Source of the DNA: an uncultured Parvularcula sp.
GTDB lineage: Bacteria > Pseudomonadota > Alphaproteobacteria > Caulobacterales > Parvularculaceae
Assembly: GCA_937919225.1 (NCBI GenBank)
Contig: CALFRH010000028.1
Location: forward strand, 1 to 53,876
DNA: 53,876 nt
Reading direction: 5' to 3'
Below, one piece after another: positions 3,933-41,804 of this stretch; position 1 is the stretch's first letter; every line of letters starts with the position of its first letter. Both the position numbers and the translations under genes were made by a program. The notes beneath the pieces were generated by a model, which worked only from the letters and a program-made list of their open reading frames with translations, did not search any database and was not told the DNA's origin.

Positions 3933-4244
3933 CTATTCAAATTGGACGTAAATCTCTTCACCATCGAGTTTTACTGGGTAAATCCGCACAGCTTCTGTGC
4001 ACGGCGCCCCAGCAGCCTCGCCCGTTTTGACGTCAAATAAGCCCTGGTGGAGAGGGCATTCGATCAGCCCGTCCTCTAAGAAACCTTCCGACAGTCGCGC
4101 CATACCATGGGTACAGATATCATGAGTGGCAAATACGTCTTCACCAACCCTATAAACGGCAACCGGCGTTCCATTCGCATCAGCGCCAAAGACATCTTCA
4201 TCGCCAAAGTCGGTAGTCTCGCCAACCTTTATCCAATCCGACAT
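3933..4244 (-). CDS. Rieske-type ferredoxin of a ring-hydroxylating oxygenase
   Basis: 103 aa; Rieske motifs CTHG and CPLHQ. Confidence 0.9.
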   Translation of the reverse strand: MSDWIKVGETTDFGDEDVFGADANGTPVAVYRVGEDVFATHDICTHGMARLSEGFLEDGLIECPLHQGLFDVKTGEAAGAPCTEAVRIYPVKLDGEEIYVQFE

Positions 4245-4259
4245 TTTCTTCGCACCTAA

Positions 4260-4766
4260 CTAAATTGGATAAATGAGCGAATTCGGAATCATCTCGGTAT
4301 CCATCACACATATACGTTCTTTAAACCTCAGTGTGCTCTCCTCCTCGACGATTGTGTCATAGGCGACACCGCAGAACGCCACCTCCGACGGCTTATCCAC
4401 TAAGGTTTGGGCGACGAAGAAATTTAATCGGGTTTTTGTTACGCCCGCGCTAGAAGAAATAATCTTCAGCCCGGAGTGATACCGCCGATAGGATCGAGGC
4501 GCATACATCATCGATTTCCGGGTTGCCGCCACCCGATCCTCCAGCATCTCACGACTTTCACATATAATGGTCGATAATGGGAACTTCCCTTCCCAATTCT
4601 CCCTTGTGGTGATGCGATATAAACAGGTCTGTGTAAAGAACTGAGGCCATGCTTCAAGATTAAGATCGTCGAGGGCAATATTATAATCGGTGTATAAATC
4701 TTCAATCTGTGACCGGTTGGGATTAATATCGGCCATAGAGTCGTGGTCATCAATGGTCTTGCTCAT
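4260..4766 (-). CDS. Aromatic ring-hydroxylating oxygenase small (beta) subunit
   Basis: 168 aa directly downstream of the alpha subunit; beta-subunit pattern (EDLYTDYNIALDDLNLEAWPQFFTQTCLYRITTREN). Confidence 0.85.
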   Translation of the reverse strand: MSKTIDDHDSMADINPNRSQIEDLYTDYNIALDDLNLEAWPQFFTQTCLYRITTRENWEGKFPLSTIICESREMLEDRVAATRKSMMYAPRSYRRYHSGLKIISSSAGVTKTRLNFFVAQTLVDKPSEVAFCGVAYDTIVEEESTLRFKERICVMDTEMIPNSLIYPI

Positions 4767-4770
4767 GGGC

Positions 4771-6012
4771 TTAAAACCCCATGACTTGACGATAATAGGC
4801 GTACATCCCGCGGATGGCAGTTTCAGTGATCATGTAATCTGTACACTCAACATCATGGCCGCCCATCTCGATCATGGTTTCCCGGTTTTGGTAGGCTTCG
4901 AAAGCCTGTTGTGAGAACTCAATAATTTCACCGTCATCAGCGGAGACAAGCCCTGCCGGCCCGAAAAGGTTGGCTTGACGTAAGCGACGTTGGGTCATCG
5001 CTTCATCATCATCCTTATACCCCCAATGGGTCCAAATAAAGTCGAAACCGCCAGGTCCCTTTGGCAATATTTGACGGGTTGAGAGGGAATTTGTTTGCTG
5101 TTGAAGAATGACTGAAGGGAAAATAGTAATCATCCCCACCGTTTGTGGCGTTGGCCATTCGTGGTGATAGTCGATGATACGCGGGTCGGCGAGTTCTAAG
5201 TCTGCATCAAAAGAACGGATTGATGTTGATACGTCATTGGCCTCTTTCTCGCCCTTACGGGAAATCAGAATGCCATGGCGCCCTGTTTCGTCTACCTCTG
5301 TTGCGGATTCTTGGTCGGCCCGGAACAGGCCAAACGTCGAGAAAAAGACATGCAACAGACCCGGATGGTAGCTGTCCTTGATGTTCTCCATCATGAGCTT
5401 CCAGTTCGCCGGAATATGCTGACGATTATAACCAAGAACCTTCAACGGCCGGCCGTCATAAACCCTCGTATAGTGCGCCCACATCCGCTCCCCTAGATAC
5501 GACCGGAAATCCGGAGTTTCCTCAGAGAACGTCGCCCAAACGACCCCATTGACGATTTCGACTCGCAAGCGTTTCAACCCATTTGCTTTTGGGTCAAACT
5601 CCTTTGGCATCCCCCCCTTTCGCTTCACCCCACGGCGAAAGGGAACCCCCATGAGCTCGCCATCTAAAGCGTAGACCCATTGATGGTAGGGGCACGCGAA
5701 CTCTTTGGCTTGACCAAATTTATCACGGCAGAACTGCGCACCACGATGGGCGCAGCGATTCTCGACGACGTATACTTCGCCATCGTCAGCACGCACCATG
5801 ATGACCGCCCTCTCCCCAACGGAGGTCGTTTTATAGTTGCCGACCTCTGGGATCTCGCACTCAAGACCGACATAGCACCAGTGGGGTCCGTAAAAGATCT
5901 TCTCCATCTCAGACGAATAGATATCTGGATCGGAATATATCCAATAGGGCACACGAGATGCGGCCTGCGGCCAAGGGCGAGGTGATTCCGACACTGGCAT
6001 GGCGCCGTCCAT
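4771..6012 (-). CDS. Aromatic ring-hydroxylating oxygenase large (alpha) subunit, salicylate 5-hydroxylase-like
   Basis: Rieske CAHRGAQFC...CPYHQW and mononuclear iron motif NIKDSYHPGLLH. The 5-hydroxylase guess rests on the neighbouring gentisate pathway. Confidence 0.85.
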   Translation of the reverse strand: MDGAMPVSESPRPWPQAASRVPYWIYSDPDIYSSEMEKIFYGPHWCYVGLECEIPEVGNYKTTSVGERAVIMVRADDGEVYVVENRCAHRGAQFCRDKFGQAKEFACPYHQWVYALDGELMGVPFRRGVKRKGGMPKEFDPKANGLKRLRVEIVNGVVWATFSEETPDFRSYLGERMWAHYTRVYDGRPLKVLGYNRQHIPANWKLMMENIKDSYHPGLLHVFFSTFGLFRADQESATEVDETGRHGILISRKGEKEANDVSTSIRSFDADLELADPRIIDYHHEWPTPQTVGMITIFPSVILQQQTNSLSTRQILPKGPGGFDFIWTHWGYKDDDEAMTQRRLRQANLFGPAGLVSADDGEIIEFSQQAFEAYQNRETMIEMGGHDVECTDYMITETAIRGMYAYYRQVMGF

Positions 6013-6097: not shown

Positions 6098-7300
6098 ATG
6101 ACTGGAACAGTGATCATCGGCGGCGGCCACGCAGGCGGGACTGCGGCAGCGGCGCTTCGAAGATACGGGTATACCCGACCAATCTCTATTTTATGCGAGG
6201 AAAGCTATCGGCCCTATGAGCGCCCTCTCTTGTCTAAGGAGTTTCTTCGCAACGCAGATAGTCGGCCCCCGGCTGTCCTTGATGACGAGGGCGATGTCGA
6301 TATTATCCTAAAGGTCGGGGAGAAAGCAGAACGCCTAAACCTCAAGGAAAAGACTGTTATCACCTCGTCAGGGGCAGCCCTCAACTATGACAGCCTTATC
6401 TTAGCGATGGGAGTCGTTGCTCGGCGCCTCCCCTTCGACAACATTAACCGGCTGCATTATGTGCGTGATATTCCTGATGCCGACAACCTTCGGAACGCCA
6501 TCAAAGCAAGCAAACGACTAGTCGTTATAGGAGCGGGCGTTGTCGGTCTTGAAGTGGCGGCGACGGCCCGGTCAATCGGGCTTGACGTGATCGTTGTTGA
6601 AGCCAGTAACCGCATATTAGGGCGAAATGTTCCCATCGATATCGCTAGTGATATCCGCGCTCTTCACGATGCTAATAAGGTCGAAATTATTTGCGGGGCG
6701 ACAGTCCAGGGGCTTATCCAAAATTCAGATGGCCTGGACATCACGCTTGAGGACGGAACAACCCTGAGGACAGACATGGCCGTTGCAGGTATTGGCATGA
6801 GGCCGGCCGTAGCACTTGCCGAAGAGGCCGGCCTTCCTTGCGACAACGGGGTGATGGTTAACGATCAACAGCAAACAGAGGATCCGTCGATATACGCTAT
6901 TGGTGACCTGGCAGCCAGATCCGACAGCGGATCTGTTCCCGAGCGATTAGAGACATGGGCCAATGCGATCGAAAGCGCGCAAATTGCCGCTGCGACCATT
7001 TGCGGTACCGAACCGCCAAAGCGACGAGCCCCCTGGTTTTGGACTGATCAATATGATGCGAATATCCAGCTTGTGGGCCAGACGCATGACACGGACTTTG
7101 TATTGCGGCGGGGCGATGGCGTTCACTCAACCCGTCTATATTACAAAAGCCAAACCCTCGTTGGGGCAGCGACATTTAACAACGCAAAAGACATGGGGCC
7201 CCTCAGACGAATGCTCGACGCAGGCCTCTCACCATCGCCGGATGACGCTGGGTGTGAGACGGTGAGCATACGAGACCTCCTTAAACGGAGTAGAACCTAA
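6098..7300 (+). CDS. FAD-dependent ferredoxin reductase of the oxygenase system
   Basis: 400 aa; GGGHAGGTAAAALRRYG (FAD), VVIGAGVVGLEVAATARSIG (NAD), IYAIGDLA. Confidence 0.9.
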   Translation: MTGTVIIGGGHAGGTAAAALRRYGYTRPISILCEESYRPYERPLLSKEFLRNADSRPPAVLDDEGDVDIILKVGEKAERLNLKEKTVITSSGAALNYDSLILAMGVVARRLPFDNINRLHYVRDIPDADNLRNAIKASKRLVVIGAGVVGLEVAATARSIGLDVIVVEASNRILGRNVPIDIASDIRALHDANKVEIICGATVQGLIQNSDGLDITLEDGTTLRTDMAVAGIGMRPAVALAEEAGLPCDNGVMVNDQQQTEDPSIYAIGDLAARSDSGSVPERLETWANAIESAQIAAATICGTEPPKRRAPWFWTDQYDANIQLVGQTHDTDFVLRRGDGVHSTRLYYKSQTLVGAATFNNAKDMGPLRRMLDAGLSPSPDDAGCETVSIRDLLKRSRT

Positions 7301-7303
7301 GGG

Positions 7304-7507
7304 TTAAACGCTCATTTGGGCGGCAGAGATACTAAATGCGTCCTTTAAAAGCGGCGCGACAAAGGCGATCGCCTGAGCATCGAAACCATCGATGACCGCG
7401 AGCACGAAACAAATAGCCACTACTCGCCACCGCAACGGACCAACGGGGCTTGCGTCAATTCGAGCGTCAACGTCGATCCGCCGTGGGTTAGAAGCAGTAG
7501 GTGACGT
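7304..7507 (-). pseudogene. Truncated N-terminal remnant of an aromatic acid:H+ symporter (AAHS/MFS family)
   Basis: Reverse-strand reading gives (ACG)SPTASNPRRIDVDARIDASPVGPLRWRVVAICFVLAVIDGFDAQAIAFVAPLLKDAFSISAAQMSV*. This is an AAHS N-terminus and TM1 motif with no ATG start, a stop after about 68 codons and no remaining transmembrane helices. Confidence 0.75.
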
Positions 7508-7536
7508 TCAGCGGCTCCCCTATGGGACAGCGTTAC

Positions 7537-8154
7537 TTATGGCGCCGCCGCGGCAAAAGCATCAATTGCTCGCAGCCGCTCATCAACCTCAACTAATTTG
7601 GGGAAAGCAGAAAGAGGGACATCAAAGCGGCGAGCGTTGAACATTTGCGGGACAAGACATACGTCTACGGCCGTCACACTATCGCCGAAGCAATAGGTCC
7701 CTCCCCGCGCGCTCACTCTTTCCTCTAGCCCAGCAAACCCAAGCCTCACCCACTCCGCATACCATGCATTACGAGCGTCTTGGTCAGCCCCTAGTTCATT
7801 TTCAAGATATTGGAGCACCCGGAGATTATTAAGCGGGTGAATGTCGCAAGCGATGATGAGCGCCATCTCCCACACGGCGCATTCAGCCTCCATATCTTTT
7901 GGGAACAGTGCTGGCTCAGGACATGTTGCATCCAAATATCGTAATATCGCCATCGACTGCGACAGGACAGTCCCATCATCCGCCTCAAACGACGGCAGCA
8001 ACCCTGATGGGTTGACCTTCAAATAAGCGTCTGACCGCTGCGCATTCTCTCTGAAGTTAATAAGGACTTTTTCGTAAGCGACATTTTTAAGATTGCATGC
8101 AATCCGTATACGATAGGACGCTGACGAGCGCGGAAAATCATAGAGTTTTGCCAT
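7537..8154 (-). CDS. Maleylpyruvate/maleylacetoacetate isomerase (zeta-class GST)
   Basis: 205 aa; YDFPRSSASYRIRIACNLKNVAYE and NPSGLLPSFEADDGTVLSQSMAILRYLD. Confidence 0.9.
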   Translation of the reverse strand: MAKLYDFPRSSASYRIRIACNLKNVAYEKVLINFRENAQRSDAYLKVNPSGLLPSFEADDGTVLSQSMAILRYLDATCPEPALFPKDMEAECAVWEMALIIACDIHPLNNLRVLQYLENELGADQDARNAWYAEWVRLGFAGLEERVSARGGTYCFGDSVTAVDVCLVPQMFNARRFDVPLSAFPKLVEVDERLRAIDAFAAAAP

Positions 8155-8157
8155 GGG

Positions 8158-8856
8158 TTAGAACGCTGTTTCGCCGATTGTCACCTCAACGGGACTAAGG
8201 CCATCAATTTGCCCCACCAACTTGTCCCCCGGCAATACCGGACCGACACCCGCCGGCGTACCGGTCATGATGATATCACCAGCACGCAGTTCGTAGAGAT
8301 TTGACAGATACTCAATTATTTCGTCTACCGACCAAATAAGGTCACGGACATCGGCATCTTGCTTCGTTTCACCATTGACCTCTAACCAGATACGGCCTGC
8401 CTCAACATGGCCGACATCCGCTGCGCGATGGAGCAATCCAATCGGAGCTGCCTCATCAAAGTTTTTGCCTGTGTCCCACGGCCGCCCTTTCTCTCTCGCC
8501 TCCAGCTGCAAATCACGGCGGGTCATGTCCAGCCCCGTGCCATAAGCGAAAATATGATCTTTGGCGTTCGCCTCTCGTATCGCCTTGCCTCCCTTGCCAA
8601 TGGCCACGACCAATTCAATCTCATAGTGATAATTGTCTGTTGACGGCGGGTACGCAACCATCTGCCCCGACGGTACAAATGTCTCGGGCCACTTGGTGAA
8701 GAAAAATGGCGGATCACGATCGGGATCCTTCCCCATCTCGCGGGCATGCGCGGCGTAATTTCTACCAACGCAGTAAATTCTACGTATGGGGAACTCATCG
8801 TCGCCTCCCGCGATGGGTGCTAATGTGGGCTGCAACGTATCAAACACAATTGTCAT
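8158..8856 (-). CDS. Fumarylpyruvate hydrolase (FAH family)
   Basis: 232 aa; IYCVGRNYAAHAREMG, HYEIELVVAIGKGG, DIIMTGTPAGVGPV. Confidence 0.9.
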   Translation of the reverse strand: MTIVFDTLQPTLAPIAGGDDEFPIRRIYCVGRNYAAHAREMGKDPDRDPPFFFTKWPETFVPSGQMVAYPPSTDNYHYEIELVVAIGKGGKAIREANAKDHIFAYGTGLDMTRRDLQLEAREKGRPWDTGKNFDEAAPIGLLHRAADVGHVEAGRIWLEVNGETKQDADVRDLIWSVDEIIEYLSNLYELRAGDIIMTGTPAGVGPVLPGDKLVGQIDGLSPVEVTIGETAF

Positions 8857-8886: not shown

Positions 8887-9939
8887 TTACAACCGTTCTT
8901 CCCGCCAAACGCCAAGTTTGTCTTGAACGGTTTTATCTGAAAAGCTGAATAGAACGAGATCATCAGCCGCTTCAATTTCTAAGCTATTCCAAGACGGAAC
9001 AACCAATACATCCTGAGGTGAGAGAGGGTAGTCTTGATGACTAATCCTCGCTGTCCCTTCTCCTTCGCATACGGTGTAGATTACTCCATCCGTTGATCGA
9101 TGAGGAAGAGTTGTCATCCCTTTTGGGATAAGCTGGCAAAAGCATGAGATGGTTTTCATCGTTGCACCTCCATGGAGGGGGTTGATGAACTCATACTTAT
9201 GGCCATCATAGGCATCAGGCGCAGTGGACGATGCCATCGTACCCAGCGCCTCCCGCCATTCCGCGAATGGGTAGTGAAATAAGGGTTGATCTTTCAGCGC
9301 CGCATCGTGATCCGTCCGCCGCACCGGCCTCAAGTTACGACCATATCGGTGACGCGTATCACCAGGCTCTCGGGTGACGGGGAACATATTTTCATTATAG
9401 CGTTCCGCATAGCTACAATCCAACATCTGTATGAGCGGGATATCAAGACCATCAAGCCAAACGACTGGATCCGCCGTTTCATTACCATGGTCATGCCACA
9501 GACCTGATGGTGTTAGTATCAGGTCAAAGGGTTCCATCAGAACCTTCTCCCCGTTCACCGCCGTATGCGCGCCACTTCCCTCTAAAACGAAACGCAGCGC
9601 GCTTTGTGCATGCCGATGACAGGGCGCCACCTCCCCAGGAAGCACAAGCTGTAACCCTGCATAAAGTGACTGCGTGATCGCAGAACTTCCAGGAAGACCT
9701 GGATTCTCTAAAATGAGGACGCGCCTTTCCGCCTGTTCAGCGGTGATGAGCTCCCCTGCTCGCATAAGATGCGAGCGTGCTACTGGATATGACCAAATGT
9801 GAGGCTTAGCAGGACTGCTTGGCTGGGCCGGAACAAGATTATGCAGCACCTCCCACAGAGGTGTCAGCTGGCACGCCGCGATGTCATCCTTAAACGATTG
9901 CATGTCAGCCATGGGTTCGGTGCCCCCCCTCAAGATCAT
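8887..9939 (-). CDS. Gentisate 1,2-dioxygenase (bicupin)
   Basis: 350 aa; PCHRHAQSALRFVLEGSGAHTAVNGEK, LTPSGLWHDHGN and a second cupin. Start may be the internal Met (MADMQSF) at 9909. Confidence 0.9.
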   Translation of the reverse strand: MILRGGTEPMADMQSFKDDIAACQLTPLWEVLHNLVPAQPSSPAKPHIWSYPVARSHLMRAGELITAEQAERRVLILENPGLPGSSAITQSLYAGLQLVLPGEVAPCHRHAQSALRFVLEGSGAHTAVNGEKVLMEPFDLILTPSGLWHDHGNETADPVVWLDGLDIPLIQMLDCSYAERYNENMFPVTREPGDTRHRYGRNLRPVRRTDHDAALKDQPLFHYPFAEWREALGTMASSTAPDAYDGHKYEFINPLHGGATMKTISCFCQLIPKGMTTLPHRSTDGVIYTVCEGEGTARISHQDYPLSPQDVLVVPSWNSLEIEAADDLVLFSFSDKTVQDKLGVWREERL

Positions 9940-10082: not shown

Positions 10083-10895
10083 GTGGAGAGCAGTATTATG
10101 GCACGTAGGGGAAAGCCGGCGACAGCGACAACAGAGGAACGTCGCGGCATACAGTCCGTAGAGGTAAGCGCCGTCATCCTATCTGCTTTGTCGAGCGCGG
10201 GATCAGCGGTCTCCCTTAAGCAGCTTAGCGATATTACGCAGATGCCGCCGAGCAAAACCCATCGATACTTGTCAAGCTTTGTCCGTACCGGCCTTGTAAG
10301 ACAGGACGTGATAAGTGGACATTACGATCTCGGTCCAGCAGCGCTTGAACTTGGTTTGGCCGCCCTTTCCCGCCTTGATATAATGGAGTTGGCTCAGAGC
10401 GAAATGAAACTCCTCACGGAAAAAACGGGCCTGACGAGTATTTTGTCCGTATGGGGGCAACAAGGCCCAACCGTTGTCCGCTGGCAGCGGGCGCGGGAAC
10501 AGCTTATCACATCACTGGGTCTTGGCTCCATCTTACCTGTCACATTCTCAGCAACCGGACACGCCTTCCTGGCCTTTTTACCGCAGGCCCTTACGGCGAC
10601 CTTATCCAATAAGGAATTAGCAACCCAAAAAAACAAAACCCCTTCTTCGATGCGCCCACGAACCAAAAAAGAGCTTACAGACATCTTATCAGCAGTGAAG
10701 GCCACAGGGGTCGCTCATGCGGATAACTCGGTTATTCCTGGCTTACGGGCTATCGCGGCCCCTGTCCTCGACCACCAAAATGATGCTGCGGCAGTGATTA
10801 CTCTTATTGGTACGGATTATATATTTTCCGAAAGTGCTGAAGAAGTCGTAGACACATTGACAGCTGCGTGCAATCGTCTCTCTTTTAATCAATAG
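10083..10895 (+). CDS. IclR-family transcriptional regulator
   Basis: 270 aa; VSLKQLSDITQMPPSKTHRYLSSFVRTGLVRQ HTH and an IclR effector domain; divergent from the gentisate operon. Confidence 0.9.
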   Translation: MESSIMARRGKPATATTEERRGIQSVEVSAVILSALSSAGSAVSLKQLSDITQMPPSKTHRYLSSFVRTGLVRQDVISGHYDLGPAALELGLAALSRLDIMELAQSEMKLLTEKTGLTSILSVWGQQGPTVVRWQRAREQLITSLGLGSILPVTFSATGHAFLAFLPQALTATLSNKELATQKNKTPSSMRPRTKKELTDILSAVKATGVAHADNSVIPGLRAIAAPVLDHQNDAAAVITLIGTDYIFSESAEEVVDTLTAACNRLSFNQ

Positions 10896-13942: not shown

Positions 13943-15094
13943 ATGACCCATTTTGATTTTTTGCTCGGCAATACCGTCGATATGATCAGGGAGACCACTG
14001 AACGGTTTGCCCGTGACCGCCTGGCCCCGATCGCGGCTGAAGTTGACGCGACCGACGAGTGTCCAAGGGAGATCTGGCAAGAGATGGGGGCGCTTGGTCT
14101 TCTTGGCCTCACTGTTGAGGAAAAAGACGGCGGCCTTGGCCTTGGTTATCTTGAGCATGTTGTCGTGATGGAAGAAATCTCCCGTGCGTCGGCGTCGATC
14201 GGATTGTCCTATGGGGCGCACTCAAACCTGTGTGTTAATCAAATTCGGCGCTGGGGAAATGATGCGCAAAAGGCAAAATATCTGCCCAAGCTCATCTCGG
14301 GCGAGCATGTGGGCGCCCTTGCCATGTCAGAGGCGGGCGCTGGGTCAGATGTGATGAGCATGGGACTGCGAGCCAAGCCGGTTGATGGCGGTTACCTCCT
14401 TAATGGGACAAAATTCTGGATCACCAATTGTCCAATTGCAGATACATATGGCTTCTATGCCAAAACAATCCCCGTAGCCGTGTCCAAGAGCGGCTCAACA
14501 TTCCTGGTTGAAAAAGGGTTTGGCGGTTTTTCATGCTCCCGAAAAATTGATAAGATGGGCATGCGGGGGTCCTATACGGGCGAACTGGTATTCGAGAATT
14601 GCTTCGTACCAGAAGAAAATATCATGGGCGACATCGGTCAGGGGGCGGCCATTTTGATGAGCGGCCTTGACTATGAGCGCGCCGTGCTTGCCGGCGGTCC
14701 ACTGGGGATCATGCAGGCCTGCATTGATACGGTTCTGCCCTATGCGCGAGAACGGACACAGTTTGGAAAGCCAATCGGTGACTTCCAGCTTATGCAGGCC
14801 AAACTGGCTGACATGTACGTCGCCCTCAATTCGGCACGCGCCTATGTGTACTCTGTCGCCCGGTCGTGCGACGCAGGCAAGACGACACGCTTTGATGCCG
14901 CGGGCGCTATCCTTATGGCTTCTGAAAATGCTGTCAAAACCTCCATTGAGGCGATCCAAGCCATGGGCGGAGCGGGCTATACCAAAGAGTGGCCCGTTGA
15001 ACGTTTTGCGCGTGACGCGAAACTTTATGATATTGGGGCCGGTACGAACGAAATACGTCGCTTTTTGATTGGCCGGGAGTTGATGAAAGGATGA
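13943..15094 (+). CDS. liuA: Isovaleryl-CoA dehydrogenase (acyl-CoA dehydrogenase)
   Basis: 383 aa; [52 protein letters not shown]; adjacent to mccB and mccA. Confidence 0.85.
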
Positions 15095-16692
15095 GCCGAA
15101 CAATCCTGAAATCAAGCATCGATAGCGAATCAGCAACATTTAAGGCGAACCGCGACGCTAATATTGCGCTAAAAGAGAAGCTGTACACAGATATTGCATC
15201 GGCCAGCCTAGGGGGCAGCGAGCGCGCACGGGAGAAACATGTCTCACGCGGCAAGTTACTGCCCCGCGACCGGGTCCACCGATTGCTCGACCCTGGCACA
15301 GCTTTTCTGGAGATTGGCCAGCTAGCCGCAAATGGTCTTTATGATGACGCAGTGCCCGGCGCGGGCGTTATCGCGGGCATTGGGCAAGTCTGCGGTCGCC
15401 AGGTGATGGTTGTGGCCAATGATGCGACGGTCAAGGGCGGCACCTACTATCCGATGACGGTGAAGAAACATGTGCGAGCCCAAGAGATCGCGCTGGAAAA
15501 TCACCTGCCGTGCATCTATCTAGTGGATTCTGGGGGGGCGAACCTACCCCGCCAGGACGAGGTTTTTCCCGACAAAGATCACTTTGGCCGTATTTTTTAC
15601 AATCAAGCTAATTTATCTGCTTACGGCATTCCCCAGATTGCCTGTGTGATGGGAAGTTGTACCGCCGGCGGCGCTTATGTCCCCGCCATGTGTGACGAGA
15701 GCATTATTGTGCGCGAACAGGGCACTATCTTCCTCGCGGGGCCCCCATTGGTGAAGGCCGCCACCGGCGAAGAAATCTCCGCAGAAGACCTGGGGGGAGG
15801 CTTTGTACACGCGCGCGAATCCGGTGTGGTCGATCATCTGGCGGACAATGACGAACATGCGCTGCTGAAGGTGCGGGACATTGTGGCGACCTTCAAACCG
15901 AACAGGGTGCCAACACTCAATATTAAGGGCCCGGTTTCCCCGCACTATGACCCGACAGAGATCTACGGCATTATTCCTCAGGATCTCCGTACACCCTTTG
16001 ATGTGCGAGATGTCATCGCACGCTTGGTTGATGGATCTGCATTCCATGAGTTTAAGCCAGAATACGGCCAAACCCTGGTGTGTGGCTTTACCCATATCTG
16101 GGGCATGCCTGTCGCGATCATCGCCAATAACGGCATTTTATTCTCTGAAAGCGCCTTAAAGGGCGCCCACTTCATCGAGCTTGCATGCCAAAGGCAGACA
16201 CCCCTCCTCTTTTTACAGAATATTTCTGGGTTTATGGTCGGCGGGAAATATGAGCGCGACGGCATTGCGAAGAATGGCGCGAAACTTGTCACCGCCGTTG
16301 CAACCGCGCAAGTCCCTAAAATTACTGTTCTGATCGGTGGGTCATTTGGCGCAGGAAACTACGGGATGTGCGGACGCGCGTACCAACCACGCTTTTTGTT
16401 CACCTGGCCCAATAGCCGGATCTCCGTCATGGGCGGCGAACAAGCCGCCTCGGTCCTGGCAACCGTACATCGCGATGCAGACAAATGGTCCGACGAAGAA
16501 ACAGAGGCCTTCAAGAAACCCGTCCGTGAACGCTATGAAGCGCAAGGAAACCCCTGGTACGCAACGGCCCGTCTTTGGGATGATGGTATTATCGACCCCG
16601 CTCAAACACGGGATGTGCTCGGCATGGCCTTCTCTGCATGTTTGAACGCCCCTGTGCCCGAGCGGGCACAATTTGGCGTCTTTAGGATGTAG
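15091..16692 (+). CDS. liuB: Methylcrotonyl-CoA carboxylase carboxyltransferase (beta) subunit
   Basis: 533 aa; [65 protein letters not shown]; 4-bp overlap with liuA. Confidence 0.9.
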
Positions 16693-19608: not shown

Positions 19609-21375
19609 ATGAACGACGCTGATCCGCCGCCAGAAACCGACCTAATGGGCGGCAACACGATCAGCCACCTTATTTCCCTGATCGCCGAGCGTCCTGTACT
19701 TGCCGCATCTGGTGTTATTCTTAGCGTTCTAAGCGCGCTATTCGCTTTTGCGCCCCATGCCACAGTGTTTGCACTGTATACCCACGTGGCTGCGGGCAGC
19801 TTACCTAATATCTCAACTGTTACTATCGCTGTTGTCGGCTTCATAGCTCTAACCTTTAGGTGGGTGCTGATATGGGCGGCAATGATGGCATCACATGTTT
19901 TGGCCTACAGCGCTCAACGTAAGTTACGTCAGCGTATTGCAGATCGTATGCTGAGGGCCCCGATGCACGAACTGTTGCAGAGATCTTCGGGGGATATTCG
20001 CGCGACGGTCGTAGATGATGTAGAAGCGTTAGAAGACGGTCTTGCTCATCTACTTCCAGACGTTATTGGAAATTCGATTGGATTACTTACGATATTTGGG
20101 ATTTTCGTTTATCTCGACTGGCGACTGGCACTTGCTGCGATCTTCTCGGTTATCATTGGCTTTGTATTTATGTCCCTACTAACCCGCGGACAATCGAGCG
20201 CAATAAGTGAGTATTTCGCGCTTAGAGCAAAAATCCAGGCAGTGACCACTGAGTATGTGAAGGCCCTGCCAGTGCTGCGCGTTTTTAATTACGATAGTAG
20301 TGCGACACAACGTATAAACCATCTGATCGACCATTTCAAAACAGTCACGAAGACCTTTTCTATCCGTTCATCTATTTCGCATACAGCTTTTTTGGTTTTC
20401 ATTACCTCTAACATTCTTGTGCTTGCCCCTATTGGGTATCTCCTCGTTAATAGGGGTGCGGTCACCGTATCCGAATTCGCCTTCGTACTCATTTTTTCCG
20501 TCGGTTTTGGTGACGCTTGCCTCACATTTCTCATCGGGCTTGTGCAGAGATTTGGAAGCTTAGGCGGTGTGATGAGCCGTATCGAAGAACTCCTAACTCT
20601 GCCCCAAATGCCGGAGCCGACACAACCACAAAAACCGCTTGGGACAGAGATCACGTTCAACGATGTATCTTTCAAGTACAATGAGCAGCCAGTATTGACC
20701 GGTCTTAGCTTTAGCATCTCCCCCGGAGAGCGCGTGGCACTGGTCGGACCATCCGGGAGCGGAAAAAGTACGTTGGTACGGCTTATTCCTCGATTTATGG
20801 ACGTAGACACAGGAAGTGTCACTGTTGGAGGGGTGGACGTTCGGCAGATCAAAGATGCCGATCTAGGGAGCACTATCTCGTTCGTATTTCAGGAAGTCTT
20901 CTTATTTTCCGAAACGGTCCGACACAACATTGCACTGGGAAACCCCAAAGCAACGGACAAGGATATTGAGGAAGCCGCTCGTCGGGCTCAAGCCCACGAC
21001 TTTATCATTGATCTACCCCACGGATATGACACACGCCTCAAGGAAGGGGGAGAGGGACTTTCTCTAGGACAGAAACAGCGCCTCTCTATCGCTCGGGCGA
21101 TCTTGAAGGATGCCCCCATTCTCATCCTTGATGAGGCGACCGCTTACGCTGATCCTGAAAATGAAGCGCGCGTCAGGGCTGCCCTCACGGAACTGACCAA
21201 AGGCAAAACCGTCTTTATGATCGCCCATCGATTGCGTTCTATTACTGATGTTGATCGTATCTTCGTTCTCGAAAATGGAAAGATTGTTCAACAGGGACAT
21301 CACAAAGATCTGTCCGTTAACGCTGGCCTCTATCGCACTCTTTGGCATAGCCAACAATCGGAGGAAGCCGCATGA
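19609..21375 (+). CDS. ABC exporter half-transporter (TMD-NBD), subunit 1
   Basis: 588 aa; Walker A GPSGSGKST, signature LSLGQKQR, Walker B ILILDEAT. Confidence 0.9.
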   Translation: MNDADPPPETDLMGGNTISHLISLIAERPVLAASGVILSVLSALFAFAPHATVFALYTHVAAGSLPNISTVTIAVVGFIALTFRWVLIWAAMMASHVLAYSAQRKLRQRIADRMLRAPMHELLQRSSGDIRATVVDDVEALEDGLAHLLPDVIGNSIGLLTIFGIFVYLDWRLALAAIFSVIIGFVFMSLLTRGQSSAISEYFALRAKIQAVTTEYVKALPVLRVFNYDSSATQRINHLIDHFKTVTKTFSIRSSISHTAFLVFITSNILVLAPIGYLLVNRGAVTVSEFAFVLIFSVGFGDACLTFLIGLVQRFGSLGGVMSRIEELLTLPQMPEPTQPQKPLGTEITFNDVSFKYNEQPVLTGLSFSISPGERVALVGPSGSGKSTLVRLIPRFMDVDTGSVTVGGVDVRQIKDADLGSTISFVFQEVFLFSETVRHNIALGNPKATDKDIEEAARRAQAHDFIIDLPHGYDTRLKEGGEGLSLGQKQRLSIARAILKDAPILILDEATAYADPENEARVRAALTELTKGKTVFMIAHRLRSITDVDRIFVLENGKIVQQGHHKDLSVNAGLYRTLWHSQQSEEAA

Positions 21376-23153
21376 CAACAAAGCAGAGCTCTTCCTTCGA
21401 TATCGTTTTCAAGATGATGTTCAGGGACAAGGCGACGGGCGCGGGTAAATATCTGTTTGGCATTTGCCTTCGCATCATCGAAACCTGCGCTGCGGCTATG
21501 CCTGCTCTGATCGTGGTATTGACCCTCAGCTTTCTTCAACAAACCCAATCAGCGCTAGCAATAGTAGCCATTATCTGTGTAACTACCTTTGCTGTTCGCT
21601 CTACCGTCCTTATGTGGTCAAGCATACAATTCTTCGACTTTGGCTTTGACCTTGGGGCCCATACGCGAAAGTCCATTGTAGAGTCTCTATTTATAGGTTC
21701 ATTGGGAAAGATAGACGCTTTCGGCCCGTCAAAGATCGTTAGCCTGATGTCAGATGCCGCTTACGAGGTCGAAACATTTGCATCAGAACGATCAGCGGAC
21801 TTTGTCGCTACTGTACTGGGTGTCGTTGTCATCATTGGCGCTACCTTTTTCTTCGATTGGCGGTTGGCGCTGACACTCATTGGGGTCTTAGGCTTCGCCG
21901 GGCTTTTTCTCAGCAAAACACAGACCATGGCCAAGCGCCTGTGGGTAGAGCGTCAGGTCAAAACAGGCAGTGTTTCCATCGCCCTTGGTGAGTTTATTGG
22001 AGGCATGTCCGTATTGCGTATGTTTGGCACCGTGGGAGAAGCAAAACAAGTATTTGAGGAAAGCGTCGCTGCCCTCCATGAAATGTGGCTGCGGTACGAA
22101 AAAACGCTTACCCCCCTTGCCATATGTGCTGGTGCCCTGATGGATTTGGCACCTGTTGCGGCTGTTATTCTCGCAGCTATACTGTACGAGAGTGACCTTA
22201 TCAGTGCGGATGCAATGATCGGGTTTTCTGTATTTGCGCTTGCTGTTGGCGTACCGCTCAAGCGCATATTGATATATTTTACGACGCTTGATCTAGCAGT
22301 GAGTAGCTTTTCAAGGCTTCACTCTTTCTTTGAGGGAACCCGCCCGCCTTCCGTTACGTCTGAGACAATAAAGGATGCTAGCATTCCGGCTTTGCCGGCC
22401 ATCGAGTTTCGGGATGTATCATTCACCTATCCCGATACTGAAGGAAACAACAGCCAGGTGGTTCTGCAGGATGTGAGCTTCTCTCTGCCACAGGGAGGTT
22501 TAACAGCTATTGTCGGTCCAAGCGGGTCTGGTAAATCAACAGTTCTTAAACTGATCATGCGTCACTGGGATCCAAAGACCGGCGAGATATTTGTCGAGGG
22601 CGATAACGTAAAGTCTTTTTCAATTGAGGATATCGCAACGCGCGTGTCATCGGTTCCCCAAGAAGTCTATCTGTTCCGCGACTCCGTTCGCGCCAATCTC
22701 CAGATTGCCAATCCCACCGCAACGGATGCAGAGTTATGGCATGCACTCGATTGCGCGCAAGCAACTCCCTTCATTAATGACATGCCTGGGGAACTAGATG
22801 CTGAAATCGGCGAGGGAGGGCTTTCCCTTTCTGGCGGTGAACGCCAACGCTTATCCATCGCACGGGCGATGCTTAAAGAGGCTCCCCTTCTATTGCTTGA
22901 CGAACCAACCGCGTCCATCGATGGCGCCAGCGCGAGGCGCATCATGGCGGCGTTAGGGAGCGAAAAATCAGATAAAACGGTTATTGTGGTGTCTCACGCT
23001 CTATTTAGTATTAAGCATGCGGACCAAATTTTGGTCTTGAATAATGGGCGATTAGAAGAAACAGGAACGCATGAAACACTACTTCGAGCAAAGGGATTAT
23101 ATCACCGTTTGTGGACGACTGAAGAAAACGCGAAAAGCTGGAGTGTCGGTTAA
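21372..23153 (+). CDS. ABC exporter half-transporter (TMD-NBD), subunit 2
   Basis: 593 aa; Walker A GPSGSGKST, signature LSGGERQR, Walker B LLLLDEPT; 4-bp overlap with subunit 1. Confidence 0.9.
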   Translation: MTTKQSSSFDIVFKMMFRDKATGAGKYLFGICLRIIETCAAAMPALIVVLTLSFLQQTQSALAIVAIICVTTFAVRSTVLMWSSIQFFDFGFDLGAHTRKSIVESLFIGSLGKIDAFGPSKIVSLMSDAAYEVETFASERSADFVATVLGVVVIIGATFFFDWRLALTLIGVLGFAGLFLSKTQTMAKRLWVERQVKTGSVSIALGEFIGGMSVLRMFGTVGEAKQVFEESVAALHEMWLRYEKTLTPLAICAGALMDLAPVAAVILAAILYESDLISADAMIGFSVFALAVGVPLKRILIYFTTLDLAVSSFSRLHSFFEGTRPPSVTSETIKDASIPALPAIEFRDVSFTYPDTEGNNSQVVLQDVSFSLPQGGLTAIVGPSGSGKSTVLKLIMRHWDPKTGEIFVEGDNVKSFSIEDIATRVSSVPQEVYLFRDSVRANLQIANPTATDAELWHALDCAQATPFINDMPGELDAEIGEGGLSLSGGERQRLSIARAMLKEAPLLLLDEPTASIDGASARRIMAALGSEKSDKTVIVVSHALFSIKHADQILVLNNGRLEETGTHETLLRAKGLYHRLWTTEENAKSWSVG

Positions 23154-31466: not shown

Positions 31467-34400
31467 TTAACCGACATCGCGTTCATCATCGGCGACCCTA
31501 CCCTCTCCGACCGGCAGTTCCGAAGCCTCAAACAATCCTGTGATGTAATGGCGCTCTTCAACCGGGCTTGCGGCGACGATGTCGCGCGCGACTTTTTGAG
31601 CTTCTAGCAGCCTGTGTGGCGATTGAGACGCCTTGTCATAGGCTCGAGTAAGGGCATCTAGTAACCTGTCCTGCCCAATCCGGCGCTCGATCTTAAGAAG
31701 CGTCAAAAGACCTTTGGCACGCATATAGTCTTCACCATCACTATCGAGGATCGCATACTCGATGCCATCTATTTTGGCCTGCTCTCTGCGATACTCATCA
31801 AGTTGAAATGCCTCATAAACGGCGACTTGCTCTTCATCGTCCAATGCAATCAACGCCAGATAAGACGGAACAGCCTTGGACAGAAAATCCGCACCTGCAA
31901 TATCTGCGATGGCGCGTTTATCGCCCCACCATACAGTCAGCGCCTTCTCCATGGTTAAAAACTTAACCCAGTCGAACGTCCAATTGCTATTGTAATCATG
32001 GACCCAGGCTTTGTCTTCCGGAATAACTATAAGGTTGCCGGCAGCGAATGCATCAGCCTCTTCATGGCTACCCGCCCACAAATGATATGGCGCGCCCGCA
32101 ATTGTCATTGTTTTATACGGAAATTCTCCAAACTTCTCAGCATATCTATTTATGGCTTCGCTTACGCCCTCCTGCATACGAACTATATTTTCTGTATGCC
32201 GAGGGTGATGAAGAACTCGCAAGACGCCCCCTCGCTGAGATAGACGTGTCTCTGCAATGGCGAAGTTGGCACTCACAATACCCACAGCAAGCGACCCTGC
32301 TCCGTGATTAATGGTTTTCATCTGCATACTATCATTACTACGTACACTACTGAGCGGATCACCGCTCGCCGCAACAGTCTGAGGCTGGTTGACTTCGACA
32401 GACAACGTCAAGTCCACATAACGCGCCGCACCATATGCCGTTGTGCCGGTGCTCGCGATAACCTCTTTAGGTGGACGAACCCGTTCCCCGACTCCAAACC
32501 TTTCCCGGCGCTTGGCTTCTTTTAGCTCACGACCTCTGTCGTACCCGATAAGCGGAAGGAAAAGAGGTCGCACCGTACTGCCGTCTTCGACAATTGGCCC
32601 CAACATCGTGCCATTGCCATACAATGGATAGTGGGCGGCGACCTCCACTTCTATACGTCTTGTTGCACCGGAGACCATCGGTTCAGAGAGGGAAGCGATG
32701 ACAACATGGCCGTATCGATCCTTATCCTCAACGCCGCCAAACCCACGGCTCGTATCAACGAAGGCATCACCGCGGACAGCGACGAATTTGAGGCCCTCTG
32801 CCCAATTGATCAAAAACGACTCCACCGGATCATCGTTGTAGTTCACCAGATCGAATGCAGCGACGTAACGCATGCGCCGCTCGTTTGGTTCTATCGTAAC
32901 CGCCAAGTCGGCGGCCGTTACGATCGGAGTAGGCTTGCTGCGCCAGTCCCCGAAGACTTTTTCATACTCAGCATTCTCAGCGTACTCATCGTCCTTGGTA
33001 TGGAAATCGTTCACGACCGTTGTTGCATAAAGAACCATTTGCGTTGAATAGGCGAACGCAATCGCCAGAACCGCGAGGCCACCAATCGCCAGCGGCGTGG
33101 TACGCACACGAGCGAGCGCCGTGCGCGTTTTCCAGTCGGTTTCAATGCCGCGCCGTGAAAACAAAGTCGCGAAAAAAGCAATGAAGAGGACAAGGGAGAA
33201 CCAGACAGCGCCATGCCAAGCTGCTTTCAGGTTGGTCTGCCGCCCGATATCGAAATCGGACCAATAAGCTTCCAAAACAAAGCCTACCAACCAAATTTGC
33301 CGCTCCAACTGATCTGTTTCTGCTGCAATCAAACATGCAATTAGGAAGATGATGGGCAGCCCCATGGTCAGAAGCCGGTTGTTTGAAAGTGTCCAAACAA
33401 TGTACACGAGACCGGCGTAAACCGGGAAAGTCAGCATGCCATACTGAAAAAGACCTTCCGCCAAAACGGCCCATCTTATCTCTCCGGCTGATGGCAACTG
33501 AGAAACAATGGCGCCAATACCCGGCAAAGCGACAAATGTTAACGCCAATAAAATCAGTGCGATAACATTCGACAAAACCAATTTGGCCGTTGAGGTCGGC
33601 ATTGCATCGATAAGGGCGGCCATGCGCGTTTCTTGATCCCGGGATACGATTTCAGTTGCAAAGAAAACAAGAGCAACGATCGCTGGCAACCAGGCCCCTG
33701 TAATGATGAGGTCCAACAATTGAGGCGTCCACAGACCGGTAAATGTTTCAACCCGTTCGAACGTAAACCCTGAATAGGCGGCGAAGATCGCCATCATAAG
33801 GTACATAAAAAGGACGATTAAAAACGCTGGTGTTATCGCCACATATTTGAATTTCATCCAAGCGCCGCGCCAAACAACACCGCCTGCACCAAGCGTTTCG
33901 CTTTCACGCCGCCTGAAGCCGAAAGGCCATCTTTTGGCCCGATTGGTATGCGATTTTTTGAGAAACCTCTCTACCCTGAAGTTGACGAACGCCGCAATAA
34001 AAAGCCCAAGCCCCACTGATAGCAACAACAACCTGTTTGCAATAAAAGCAGGCGTCATCTCAATCAAACCGCGTTGCCGCATGTCCGCAGACCAATAATT
34101 GACCTGGGCGTCGAGCGTTTGTTTACCGACCGGATCAGTCGCCTGAAGAAGAAAAAGATTATTCTCAACGTCTTCGAACGAAACGGCATACGTAAAGAAA
34201 AGCACTATAAACACTGCCGTCAGTGCATACGACGCCGTACCGCGGCCAGTCAGCGCCGTCAGACCAAAATGCATCCCGCCATATGCAATACTGGAAAGGC
34301 CTAACCACAATAGCGTCGCCTGCGTCATCGACGCCCAGGGCGTTTCAACAAGCGCACCTTTGTCAATAAGACCGACCGCTGGGCCAACGTATGGGAAGAG

Positions 34401-34802
34401 AACAAAGGCGACCGGCAACGATGCGATGACAATGACAAGGCTGATCCAGCTCGCCAGGGCTTTGGCTCCTAAGTACTTTCGATATTCTATCGGCTTGGAA
34501 TAGATGAGCGGCCCGATGCGCGTTTTGAGATCAGATAAGAGCGGCATGGTCATCAAACCAGCGCCAAGAACGGCGCACCAAAAGGTCGAGTACATAAAAA
34601 AGTACTGCGCGGTATAGGCTGAGTTTCGTGCAACACGCCCAGACGCCACCAAACCATCCCAATCCGCCGTCCCTAAATCAAATATGTTTTTCAACGTCAT
34701 TATGATGGCGATGGCCCAAATGACCTTCGACTTCAGGACGCGTCTAAGCTCAAACCTTAAAACGGTTTTAAATGTATTTGCTTCAGCTACGGGATTGCTC
34801 AT
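31467..34802 (-). CDS. ABC-2 type permease fused to a C-terminal M1-aminopeptidase-like domain
   Basis: 1111 aa; multiple hydrophobic helices, then an M1-like fold ending VWWGDKRAIADIAGADFLSKAVPSYLALIAL. HExxH is absent. Confidence 0.75.
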   Translation of the reverse strand: MSNPVAEANTFKTVLRFELRRVLKSKVIWAIAIIMTLKNIFDLGTADWDGLVASGRVARNSAYTAQYFFMYSTFWCAVLGAGLMTMPLLSDLKTRIGPLIYSKPIEYRKYLGAKALASWISLVIVIASLPVAFVLFPYVGPAVGLIDKGALVETPWASMTQATLLWLGLSSIAYGGMHFGLTALTGRGTASYALTAVFIVLFFTYAVSFEDVENNLFLLQATDPVGKQTLDAQVNYWSADMRQRGLIEMTPAFIANRLLLLSVGLGLFIAAFVNFRVERFLKKSHTNRAKRWPFGFRRRESETLGAGGVVWRGAWMKFKYVAITPAFLIVLFMYLMMAIFAAYSGFTFERVETFTGLWTPQLLDLIITGAWLPAIVALVFFATEIVSRDQETRMAALIDAMPTSTAKLVLSNVIALILLALTFVALPGIGAIVSQLPSAGEIRWAVLAEGLFQYGMLTFPVYAGLVYIVWTLSNNRLLTMGLPIIFLIACLIAAETDQLERQIWLVGFVLEAYWSDFDIGRQTNLKAAWHGAVWFSLVLFIAFFATLFSRRGIETDWKTRTALARVRTTPLAIGGLAVLAIAFAYSTQMVLYATTVVNDFHTKDDEYAENAEYEKVFGDWRSKPTPIVTAADLAVTIEPNERRMRYVAAFDLVNYNDDPVESFLINWAEGLKFVAVRGDAFVDTSRGFGGVEDKDRYGHVVIASLSEPMVSGATRRIEVEVAAHYPLYGNGTMLGPIVEDGSTVRPLFLPLIGYDRGRELKEAKRRERFGVGERVRPPKEVIASTGTTAYGAARYVDLTLSVEVNQPQTVAASGDPLSSVRSNDSMQMKTINHGAGSLAVGIVSANFAIAETRLSQRGGVLRVLHHPRHTENIVRMQEGVSEAINRYAEKFGEFPYKTMTIAGAPYHLWAGSHEEADAFAAGNLIVIPEDKAWVHDYNSNWTFDWVKFLTMEKALTVWWGDKRAIADIAGADFLSKAVPSYLALIALDDEEQVAVYEAFQLDEYRREQAKIDGIEYAILDSDGEDYMRAKGLLTLLKIERRIGQDRLLDALTRAYDKASQSPHRLLEAQKVARDIVAASPVEERHYITGLFEASELPVGEGRVADDERDVG

Positions 34803-34806
34803 GGGA

Positions 34807-35691
34807 TTAATGATGGGTTTTCGTCAAGCTGAAGAAAGTATCTTCTAGTGTTGGTGTTTTAGGCTCAAACCCTGCGCCCGGCGAGGCTTCCGATTCGACA
34901 AGTACCCGGACTTTTCCGCGCTGAACCTTCGTCGCAATGACGTTTGCTTCCGCTCGCACCTCAGCGACATCTTTGGTATCGAGATCACCAATCCAAAGGC
35001 GTCCTTCCAGCTGTGCGGTGAAGTCATCCGGTGAGCCAGTTCCAACGATATGGCCCCGATGAAGAACGGCCATCTCTGTACAGAGAGTAGCAATGTCTTC
35101 AACTATGTGCGTCGACAAAAAGATAATGCAGTCACGGCTAATCGAGGCAAGAATTTCATGAAGTCGGTTTCGTTCAGTGGGATCGAGCCCAGCAGTTGGT
35201 TCATCGACAATGAGTAGCTTTGGCTCACCAAGTAGCGCCTGCGCCACGCCGAAACGCTGACGCATGCCACCAGAATAGGTATCAACGCTGCGTGTCCGAA
35301 CATCCCAAAGGTTCACCGCGTGGAGAAGCCGTTTGACCTCATCAACACGCTTAGCAGGATTATCAAAGCCCTTGAGCTGCGCCAAATAGTCTAACAGCTC
35401 AATCGCCGGCACGCCGGGGTAAACCCCAAACTCTTGCGGCAAATATCCTATGAAACGGCGCGCCTCAGCTGGCTCCGCTACAATATCCACCTCCCCTAGC
35501 CGCAATCCGCCCGCGCTAGGCACCTGAAGGGTTGCCAACGAATTCATGAGCGTTGACTTGCCTGCGCCATTGTGCCCAAGCAATCCAAACATCCCTGGAC
35601 TGATGGTAAGGGAAACATCGTCAAGGGCTTTTACACCATTACCGTAGAGTTTACTAACGTTTCTGATCTGAAGTTTGAGAGCGTCGCTCAT
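34807..35691 (-). CDS. ABC transporter ATP-binding protein, partner of the permease
   Basis: 294 aa; GHNGAGKST, YSGGMRQRFGVAQAL, LLIVDEPTAGLDP. Confidence 0.9.
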   Translation of the reverse strand: MSDALKLQIRNVSKLYGNGVKALDDVSLTISPGMFGLLGHNGAGKSTLMNSLATLQVPSAGGLRLGEVDIVAEPAEARRFIGYLPQEFGVYPGVPAIELLDYLAQLKGFDNPAKRVDEVKRLLHAVNLWDVRTRSVDTYSGGMRQRFGVAQALLGEPKLLIVDEPTAGLDPTERNRLHEILASISRDCIIFLSTHIVEDIATLCTEMAVLHRGHIVGTGSPDDFTAQLEGRLWIGDLDTKDVAEVRAEANVIATKVQRGKVRVLVESEASPGAGFEPKTPTLEDTFFSLTKTHH

Positions 35692-39999: not shown

Positions 40000-41751
40000 T
40001 CAACGCTTCGAGATATTTAACGAAGATATTTCTGCTAACGGTACTTCAATGAAGGACGGCATATTTGCGGAATGATGAATCTTAATAGTGGCCGATCTTC
40101 CCTCAGCCATAAAGGCCTGTTCGTGAGTTGATCCAATACCAAGATTTCGTGCTACGTACGGATGCGCCCCACTCGCGATCAAGACACGCAAGCGCTCACC
40201 CTTTTTAAACTGAGTGACCGTCGGCGCTAGTGTGATATCCACTCTCATTACCTCGCCTACAGCCGATTCAAAGAACACACGCTTTACCCCATCCGTGATG
40301 TTCTTAGTTTTGCCAAACCGAGATACTCGATTGACACGGACGAAAAGATCAGATGTTTCAACGCTCGTCTCAAAATAAATAGACGCTGTGATTTCACCAA
40401 CAACGATTGTATCACTCTCAAAGGGTTCAGCAGTGAACGTAATTGTATCATCCCGCGCTTCGAGGTCTGAATTATCAGTAACCGGTTTAGTATTTCCCAA
40501 AAGAAGGCCCCCAACAGCCGGTGTTGGATCGTTAGGATCATATACGTACGAGGTCGCCTCCCCCTCACTCATCGGCGCCACGGTACCCAATACGCCATTT
40601 GGCCGAAGGTAAAACAACTCAGCAGTGGCCGGAATCGGCCATACGTCAGACTCGATCCACTTACCGGTTCCTAATACATTTAAGTGAATGGATTTCGCGG
40701 GGATGCTAGGCGCTTCATCTTTCAAAGTATGATCAAACCACGCTTTCCCGTCCCGCATAAAGCGAATTATCGACGGCGCGTCGAAATGAGGCCCCGAAGC
40801 AACCGACAGACGTGGGATTTTTCCGGCAGCAACAAGATCATGATAATCCGTAAAGACGTCCGGCATCACCGTGTCATGCCACATCGTCGCCAGGAATACA
40901 GGCGCCTCTATCGCCGAAATCTCCTCTGTCGTAAGAGACGATTCACTCCAATAATCAGCACTAGGATCAGCGCTATTCACGAAAGTTTGATAAAAATCGA
41001 TATCTGCGCCCGTTGCCGCCACATCGATCCCAGTGACAGGCAGATGGTCGAACGGAACGTCTACCTTTTCGCCACCAGCAAGAGCTCTCAGGATTTGTGC
41101 TACCGGTGAGCCGGTCGCAGACTGGTAGTTACTTTTTTTCAGGCTATCAACGAATACTGTCCACCCGGCGGCCGCTTCAACATTGAAACCACCAGAGCTG
41201 TAAAAAATGTTCCGAAACCCCCTAGGCGCCACGGCTGTGAAAACCGCTTTTACGGAAGGGTCATTGAGGACAGCAATCGCATTTGACGTATATCCAAGAT
41301 AACTCATCCCGAATGTGGCAATCTGCCCGTTGAACCAGGTTTGCTCTTTGATCCACTCGATTGTGGCCGCCCCATCTTTTTTCTCATTTGTAAGCGGAAC
41401 AAACTCACCACCCGAGTCGCCTGCACCGCGGGTATCTTGAGAAATCACGTTATAGCCACGCCTGGCGAAGAATTCAGCGAATGCAACCGTCGTAGACTCC
41501 CCGCGCCCATAAGGGGTTCTCATCACAATAGTTGGAAAAGCACCGTCTAACGTTGGCCTGTACAGGTCAGCGATCAAAAGAACACCGTCAGGTGTCTTCA
41601 TGTCCAAAGCGCGATCGATCCGAATGTCATTCTCAGCGATTGGCAGTCCCATCGCTTTGGCAAAAACAAAATCACGAATACGCCAGCTGCTGCTGGCCAA
41701 AAGGATAAGAACTAAAAAAATACCAATTACGGATATTAATATTTTTATCAT
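40000..41751 (-). CDS. CocE/NonD (S15) family alpha/beta hydrolase, N-terminal membrane segment
   Basis: 583 aa; IVMRTPYGRGE, VISQDTRGAGDSGGEF, nucleophile motif GMSYLG. Confidence 0.85.
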   Translation of the reverse strand: MIKILISVIGIFLVLILLASSSWRIRDFVFAKAMGLPIAENDIRIDRALDMKTPDGVLLIADLYRPTLDGAFPTIVMRTPYGRGESTTVAFAEFFARRGYNVISQDTRGAGDSGGEFVPLTNEKKDGAATIEWIKEQTWFNGQIATFGMSYLGYTSNAIAVLNDPSVKAVFTAVAPRGFRNIFYSSGGFNVEAAAGWTVFVDSLKKSNYQSATGSPVAQILRALAGGEKVDVPFDHLPVTGIDVAATGADIDFYQTFVNSADPSADYWSESSLTTEEISAIEAPVFLATMWHDTVMPDVFTDYHDLVAAGKIPRLSVASGPHFDAPSIIRFMRDGKAWFDHTLKDEAPSIPAKSIHLNVLGTGKWIESDVWPIPATAELFYLRPNGVLGTVAPMSEGEATSYVYDPNDPTPAVGGLLLGNTKPVTDNSDLEARDDTITFTAEPFESDTIVVGEITASIYFETSVETSDLFVRVNRVSRFGKTKNITDGVKRVFFESAVGEVMRVDITLAPTVTQFKKGERLRVLIASGAHPYVARNLGIGSTHEQAFMAEGRSATIKIHHSANMPSFIEVPLAEISSLNISKR

Positions 41752-41804
41752 TATTGATATTTCTTTTTGGTGATGGATGTCTTCATTATTATAGAGCCAT
41801 TTAT

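Follow-up and report, generated by a model that had tools for sequence, protein, structure and literature searches.

A probable remnant of an aromatic acid/H+ symporter gene at the end of a predicted gentisate operon

The gap between a ferredoxin reductase gene and a convergent set of ring-cleavage genes in the window (i.e., the whole stretch of 53,876 nucleotides analyzed here) raises the question of whether this DNA is simply non-coding or represents what is left of a gene. Our analyses favor the second answer, with a probability of approx. 0.8 that the stretch is a real, non-functional remnant of a symporter gene of the aromatic acid/H+ symporter (AAHS) family; it shows homology to this family and is truncated, the neighbouring frames are complete, and related clusters carry full-length transporters. 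The remnant would account for the otherwise empty gap between the two genes, and represents a small example of a visible scar, where an uptake gene appears to have been lost and the degradation enzymes kept.

Table 1. Position and identification of the remnant and its neighbours (positions are those of the window)
Feature	Position	Strand	Basis
Rieske-type ferredoxin	3933..4244	-	PF00355, E = 1.5e-19
Rieske oxygenase beta	4260..4766	-	PF00866, E = 7.1e-08; NF041685, 7.1e-35
Rieske oxygenase alpha, salicylate 5-hydroxylase-like	4771..6012	-	7c8z, E = 5.2e-156; NF041684 (AndAc), 3.9e-125, below cut-off
Ferredoxin--NAD reductase, intact, convergent with remnant	6098..7300	+	Pyr_redox_2, 1.3e-59; Reductase_C complete, 1-85/85
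Gap between two convergent stop codons	7301..7303	.	three bases, read directly; a breakpoint would lie at or near them
AAHS-family MFS transporter remnant	7304..7507	-	N-terminal tail and TM1 (DGFD); first codon ACG, last TAA
Probable Shine-Dalgarno sequence AGGGGAG	7516..7522	-	read from sequence; GGGGAG seven bases before ACG; putative function
Maleylpyruvate/maleylacetoacetate isomerase (GST fold), directly upstream of remnant	7537..8154	-	TIGR01262, E = 4.3e-72, over cut-off
Fumarylpyruvate hydrolase-like FAH-family protein	8158..8856	-	PF01557, E = 5.8e-57
Gentisate 1,2-dioxygenase	8887..9939	-	TIGR02272, E = 1e-149, over cut-off
IclR-type regulator, divergent from ring-cleavage genes	10083..10895	+	36-40% identity to ORF in related clusters; label from a reading of the sequence, not from the family scan

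Sequence and family assignment of the remnant

Read from 7507 to 7304 on the reverse strand, the gap translates as TSPTASNPRRIDVDARIDASPVGPLRWRVVAICFVLAVIDGFDAQAIAFVAPLLKDAFSISAAQMSV, followed by the stop codon TAA. These approx. 67 codons correspond to the 5' end of an AAHS gene; the NCBIfam family TIGR00895 (AAHS) matches at profile positions 1-54 of 398 (E = 1.9e-10) and the PcaK profile NF053517 at positions 2-56 of 437 (E = 5.2e-10), and a Pfam search of this very short piece gave no match. The chance of a 67-codon open frame alone is approx. 5% at this composition; the profile E-values exclude a chance match. Both features expected of a derived remnant, i.e., an AAHS N-terminus and the DGXD motif of TM1, were found, with the motif (DGFD) aligned with that of full-length relatives. 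Both of its aspartates, which GenK and PcaK require for uptake (PMC3392265), are kept, but only 15 of the 29 columns conserved among other AAHS proteins are retained. An earlier note on this DNA had described an AAHS-family N-terminus with a DGFD-containing TM1 that runs into a stop, and had proposed homology to MFS/AAHS proteins as a check; the significant matches to TIGR00895 and NF053517 and the TAA at 7306-7304 bear this out. Compared to the peptide given there, the open frame begins 8 codons earlier. Compared to the AAHS family (GenK, PcaK, BenK, MhpT), the remnant shares the N-terminal tail, the TM1 motif and the position in an aromatic catabolic cluster, whereas it covers only 54 of the 398 profile positions and has no ATG and none of the loops and helices 2-12. 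Its score of 40.3 bits lies below the TIGR00895 cut-off of 418.55 and thus does not place it among functional AAHS proteins; the full-length AAHS genes of related clusters, with 398-399 bits, also fall just under this cut-off.

The ACG at 7507-7505, which the earlier note had likewise taken as the probable start codon and which can be read directly from the sequence, opens the frame right behind an in-frame TGA at 7510-7508. Given this position and the Shine-Dalgarno sequence upstream, it is probably a changed ATG; it could also be a weak native start. G+C contents by codon position (0.627/0.507/0.537) resemble those of coding genes. That the frame is still open and coding-like in G+C counts against the stretch being a remnant; decay would thus be recent.

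Extent of the missing part

Approximately 85% of the transporter gene (helices 2-12) is gone from the window and the neighbours are untouched; the remnant stops where helix 2 would start, with 3 bp between its TAA and the stop of the reductase gene, whose C-terminus aligns with those of the reductases of relatives. A tblastn search of the window with four full-length AAHS proteins found no further AAHS piece (other matches, E > 0.6), no second MFS gene was present among the ORFs scanned in the window, and searches of the bin, in which the family profile and a full-length cluster AAHS protein served as queries, revealed no separate AAHS fragment. Contig C278 provided the sole other strong AAHS match in the bin, in the form of a complete gene, and all further matches were distant MFS proteins in long frames. 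The claim that the remaining eleven or so helices are gone is supported. The regions absent here include the loop motifs between helices 2-3 and 8-9 and the GenK-type charged residues (Arg-103, Asp-312, Arg-313 and Arg-386). GenK requires Arg-103, Trp-309, Asp-312, Arg-313 and Arg-386 (PMC3392265), and all five positions lie beyond the end of the remnant; truncation of genK virtually abolished gentisate uptake (PMC3392265).

We also considered, and rejected, three other origins of the truncation. Had the hydroxylase block been inserted into the transporter gene, a C-terminal AAHS piece would remain, which tblastn found neither beyond the block nor elsewhere in the window, and the missing part was not found on another contig of the bin. 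Deletion between direct repeats was rejected as well; the repeat search found only imperfect repeats of 13-15 nt, none of them at 7300, although the former junction is represented here by a single side.

Comparison with related clusters

Comparable clusters were defined by the presence of genes for both a Rieske oxygenase (RHO) alpha subunit and a gentisate dioxygenase (GDO) of at least 50% identity. Among the 14 distinct clusters so defined (L172 was left out, as it was taken to represent the same species as L017), 13 contain a full-length AAHS gene (about 435-467 aa), i.e., those of Azospirillum (L015, L016), Tistrella (L017), the same-order genomes L158, L160-L165, L169 and L170, and L171; as several are closely related, these do not represent 13 independent events. 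The clusters L015-L017 came from a contig search with the reductase as query, which otherwise returned mostly unrelated reductases. The Azospirillum, Tistrella and same-order clusters share the neighbours found here (RHO alpha and beta, ferredoxin, reductase, GDO, fumarylpyruvate hydrolase, maleylpyruvate isomerase and IclR-type regulator) but differ in gene order and in having a full-length AAHS gene, the product of which is approx. 39-42% identical to the remnant. In the 385 genomes of the class, every other match to the remnant falls within a frame that stays open for 414 codons or more. As 13 of the 14 clusters have a full-length gene and all other class-level matches lie in such long frames, the truncation is peculiar to the present contig; a truncated gene with intact homologues at like loci is what a gene remnant would present, and this conserved synteny supports the loss of a transporter.

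In the exception, L167 (G156:C110), the cluster has no AAHS gene, and genes for a TonB-dependent receptor and a Mu-type transposase lie close to it. Ring-cleavage clusters without hydroxylase genes also exist (L159 and L168).

A functional small membrane peptide, with ACG as its start and coupled to the isomerase gene, would also be consistent with a frame that is open for 67 codons, has coding-like G+C contents and retains a Shine-Dalgarno sequence. As searches of 61 relatives and 385 class genomes revealed no comparable short frame, as half of the conserved columns of the family are changed, and as ACG is a poor start codon, such a peptide is very improbable; the same holds for a single-helix peptide that is translated and kept for its own function, e.g., modulation of the paralogue on C278.

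Our searches gave no closely related sister that carries the gene intact, the best GDO relatives being 52-59% identical, and this absence counts against the remnant reading, as the pre-deletion state is unseen. The genus-mates contain neither a remnant nor a close homologue of the cluster, and in only one of them (G001) was a gentisate dioxygenase found (46% identity); a sister comparison within the genus is thus no valid test, as these genomes lack the locus and the contig may belong elsewhere. A literature search for described transporter remnants of this kind returned nothing on point.

Composition of the bin and the possibility of an assembly error

The bin (G000) comprises 5.40 Mb on 695 contigs with 5.7% contamination, as compared to 2.9-3.4 Mb for the genus-mates, and contains two divergent MCC-type carboxylase genes. 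The copy at C230:9885-11480 is 71-79% identical to those of the genus-mates, while that in the window (15091-16692) shows only 62-67% identity to theirs and 73-74% to the copies from members of another family of the order. Contigs of 5 kb or more that were sampled had G+C contents from 0.504 to 0.587 (window, 0.511; C278, 0.516; C230, 0.567). From these data, the bin reads as mixed, with the window and C278 both on the low-G+C side, and the contig of the window may have entered the bin as a contaminant or have been acquired horizontally.

The main rival to a real remnant is an assembly error, i.e., a true genome with a full-length transporter from which approx. 1.1 kb was dropped, or a misjoining of two strains. 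Mixing of strains or species is likely, as the bin is metagenome-like, oversized and contaminated and has a wide spread in G+C, and the gene order at the joint was not seen in relatives. Still, none of the other contigs carries the missing part, no repeat that would cause a collapse lies at the joint, both neighbouring genes are complete, and a collapse leaves the ACG start unexplained; we thus consider an assembly error unlikely.

Predicted pathway and uptake

The gene set for a salicylate 5-hydroxylase/gentisate cluster of predicted specificity is complete, including Rieske alpha and beta subunits, ferredoxin, reductase, gentisate dioxygenase, maleylpyruvate isomerase and fumarylpyruvate hydrolase. 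Gentisate genes are thus present as the earlier note had stated, but as the solved structure nearest to the Rieske alpha subunit is salicylate 5-hydroxylase (7c8z), its gentisate operon can be refined to a likely pathway from salicylate via gentisate to fumarate and pyruvate.

We infer that in the ancestor a transporter gene was the last of an operon, following the genes for gentisate dioxygenase, fumarylpyruvate hydrolase and maleylpyruvate isomerase, and that a deletion would have taken out everything from approx. codon 68 (helices 2-12, about 1.1 kb) without damage to the reductase gene. The same event possibly brought the ring-cleavage operon and the ferredoxin-reductase/salicylate-hydroxylase genes together in a tail-to-tail arrangement. 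An AAHS gene facing a reductase gene tail to tail was found in none of the relatives compared; as the remnant lies where the two modules meet, in an order unseen in relatives, the loss may date from this rearrangement, and it is plausible that the transporter was lost when the modules joined. The start codon would have become ACG at some point, unless it was ACG already. Tentatively, the start codon may have been lost first, silencing the gene, with the deletion following later; both lesions are present and a good Shine-Dalgarno sequence precedes the ACG, but the sequence gives no order of the lesions, and a weak native start would also explain the ACG.

As the catabolic enzymes look intact, the cell would probably still degrade salicylate through gentisate. 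A cell that forms gentisate internally from salicylate may have no need for a gentisate importer. Substrate could enter by diffusion of the undissociated acid, as described for aromatic acids at low pH (PMC3392265), or by another transporter, possibly the AAHS protein of C278. This 446-aa, full-length protein is 52-54% identical to the remnant, i.e., nearer to it than the cluster-linked AAHS proteins, and the remnant thus need not be their orthologue. The C278 gene is not part of a gentisate cluster; it lies with a TetR-like regulator gene and two GST-like frames (L152, G000:C278, 930-2270 and 6082-7677), a region which is possibly another aromatic catabolic locus. The C278 protein could serve as replacement transporter, but as the bin looks mixed, it may come from another cell. 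The claim that a dedicated uptake gene was lost agrees with the truncated remnant and the intact related clusters, but loss of the sole route does not follow, as the bin has the full-length gene on C278.

The gentisate genes of Ralstonia sp. U2 and Streptomyces sp. WA46 are not accompanied by a transporter gene, and these strains do not grow on external gentisate (PMC3392265). As in the present cluster, the catabolic genes are complete and a dedicated gentisate transporter is absent, whereas a transporter remnant is still visible only here. Since such clusters exist and acids can diffuse, loss of the transporter need not end catabolism. Decay of a transporter gene in a catabolic cluster is ordinary gene decay and, as transporter-less catabolic clusters were already described (PMC3392265), leaves knowledge of gentisate uptake unchanged.

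Other transport genes among the ORFs scanned in the window encode a TonB receptor (43980-46265) and ABC proteins (19609-23153 and 34807-35691), with no evidence that links them to aromatic acids. Beside the ABC ATPase gene at 34807-35691, a predicted 1111-aa protein is encoded at 31467-34802, for which Pfam gave no match at E ≤ 1e-8. The region at 40000-43625 contains two adjoining same-strand genes of S15-family peptidases/esterases (PepX_C type), which form an apparent tandem pair.
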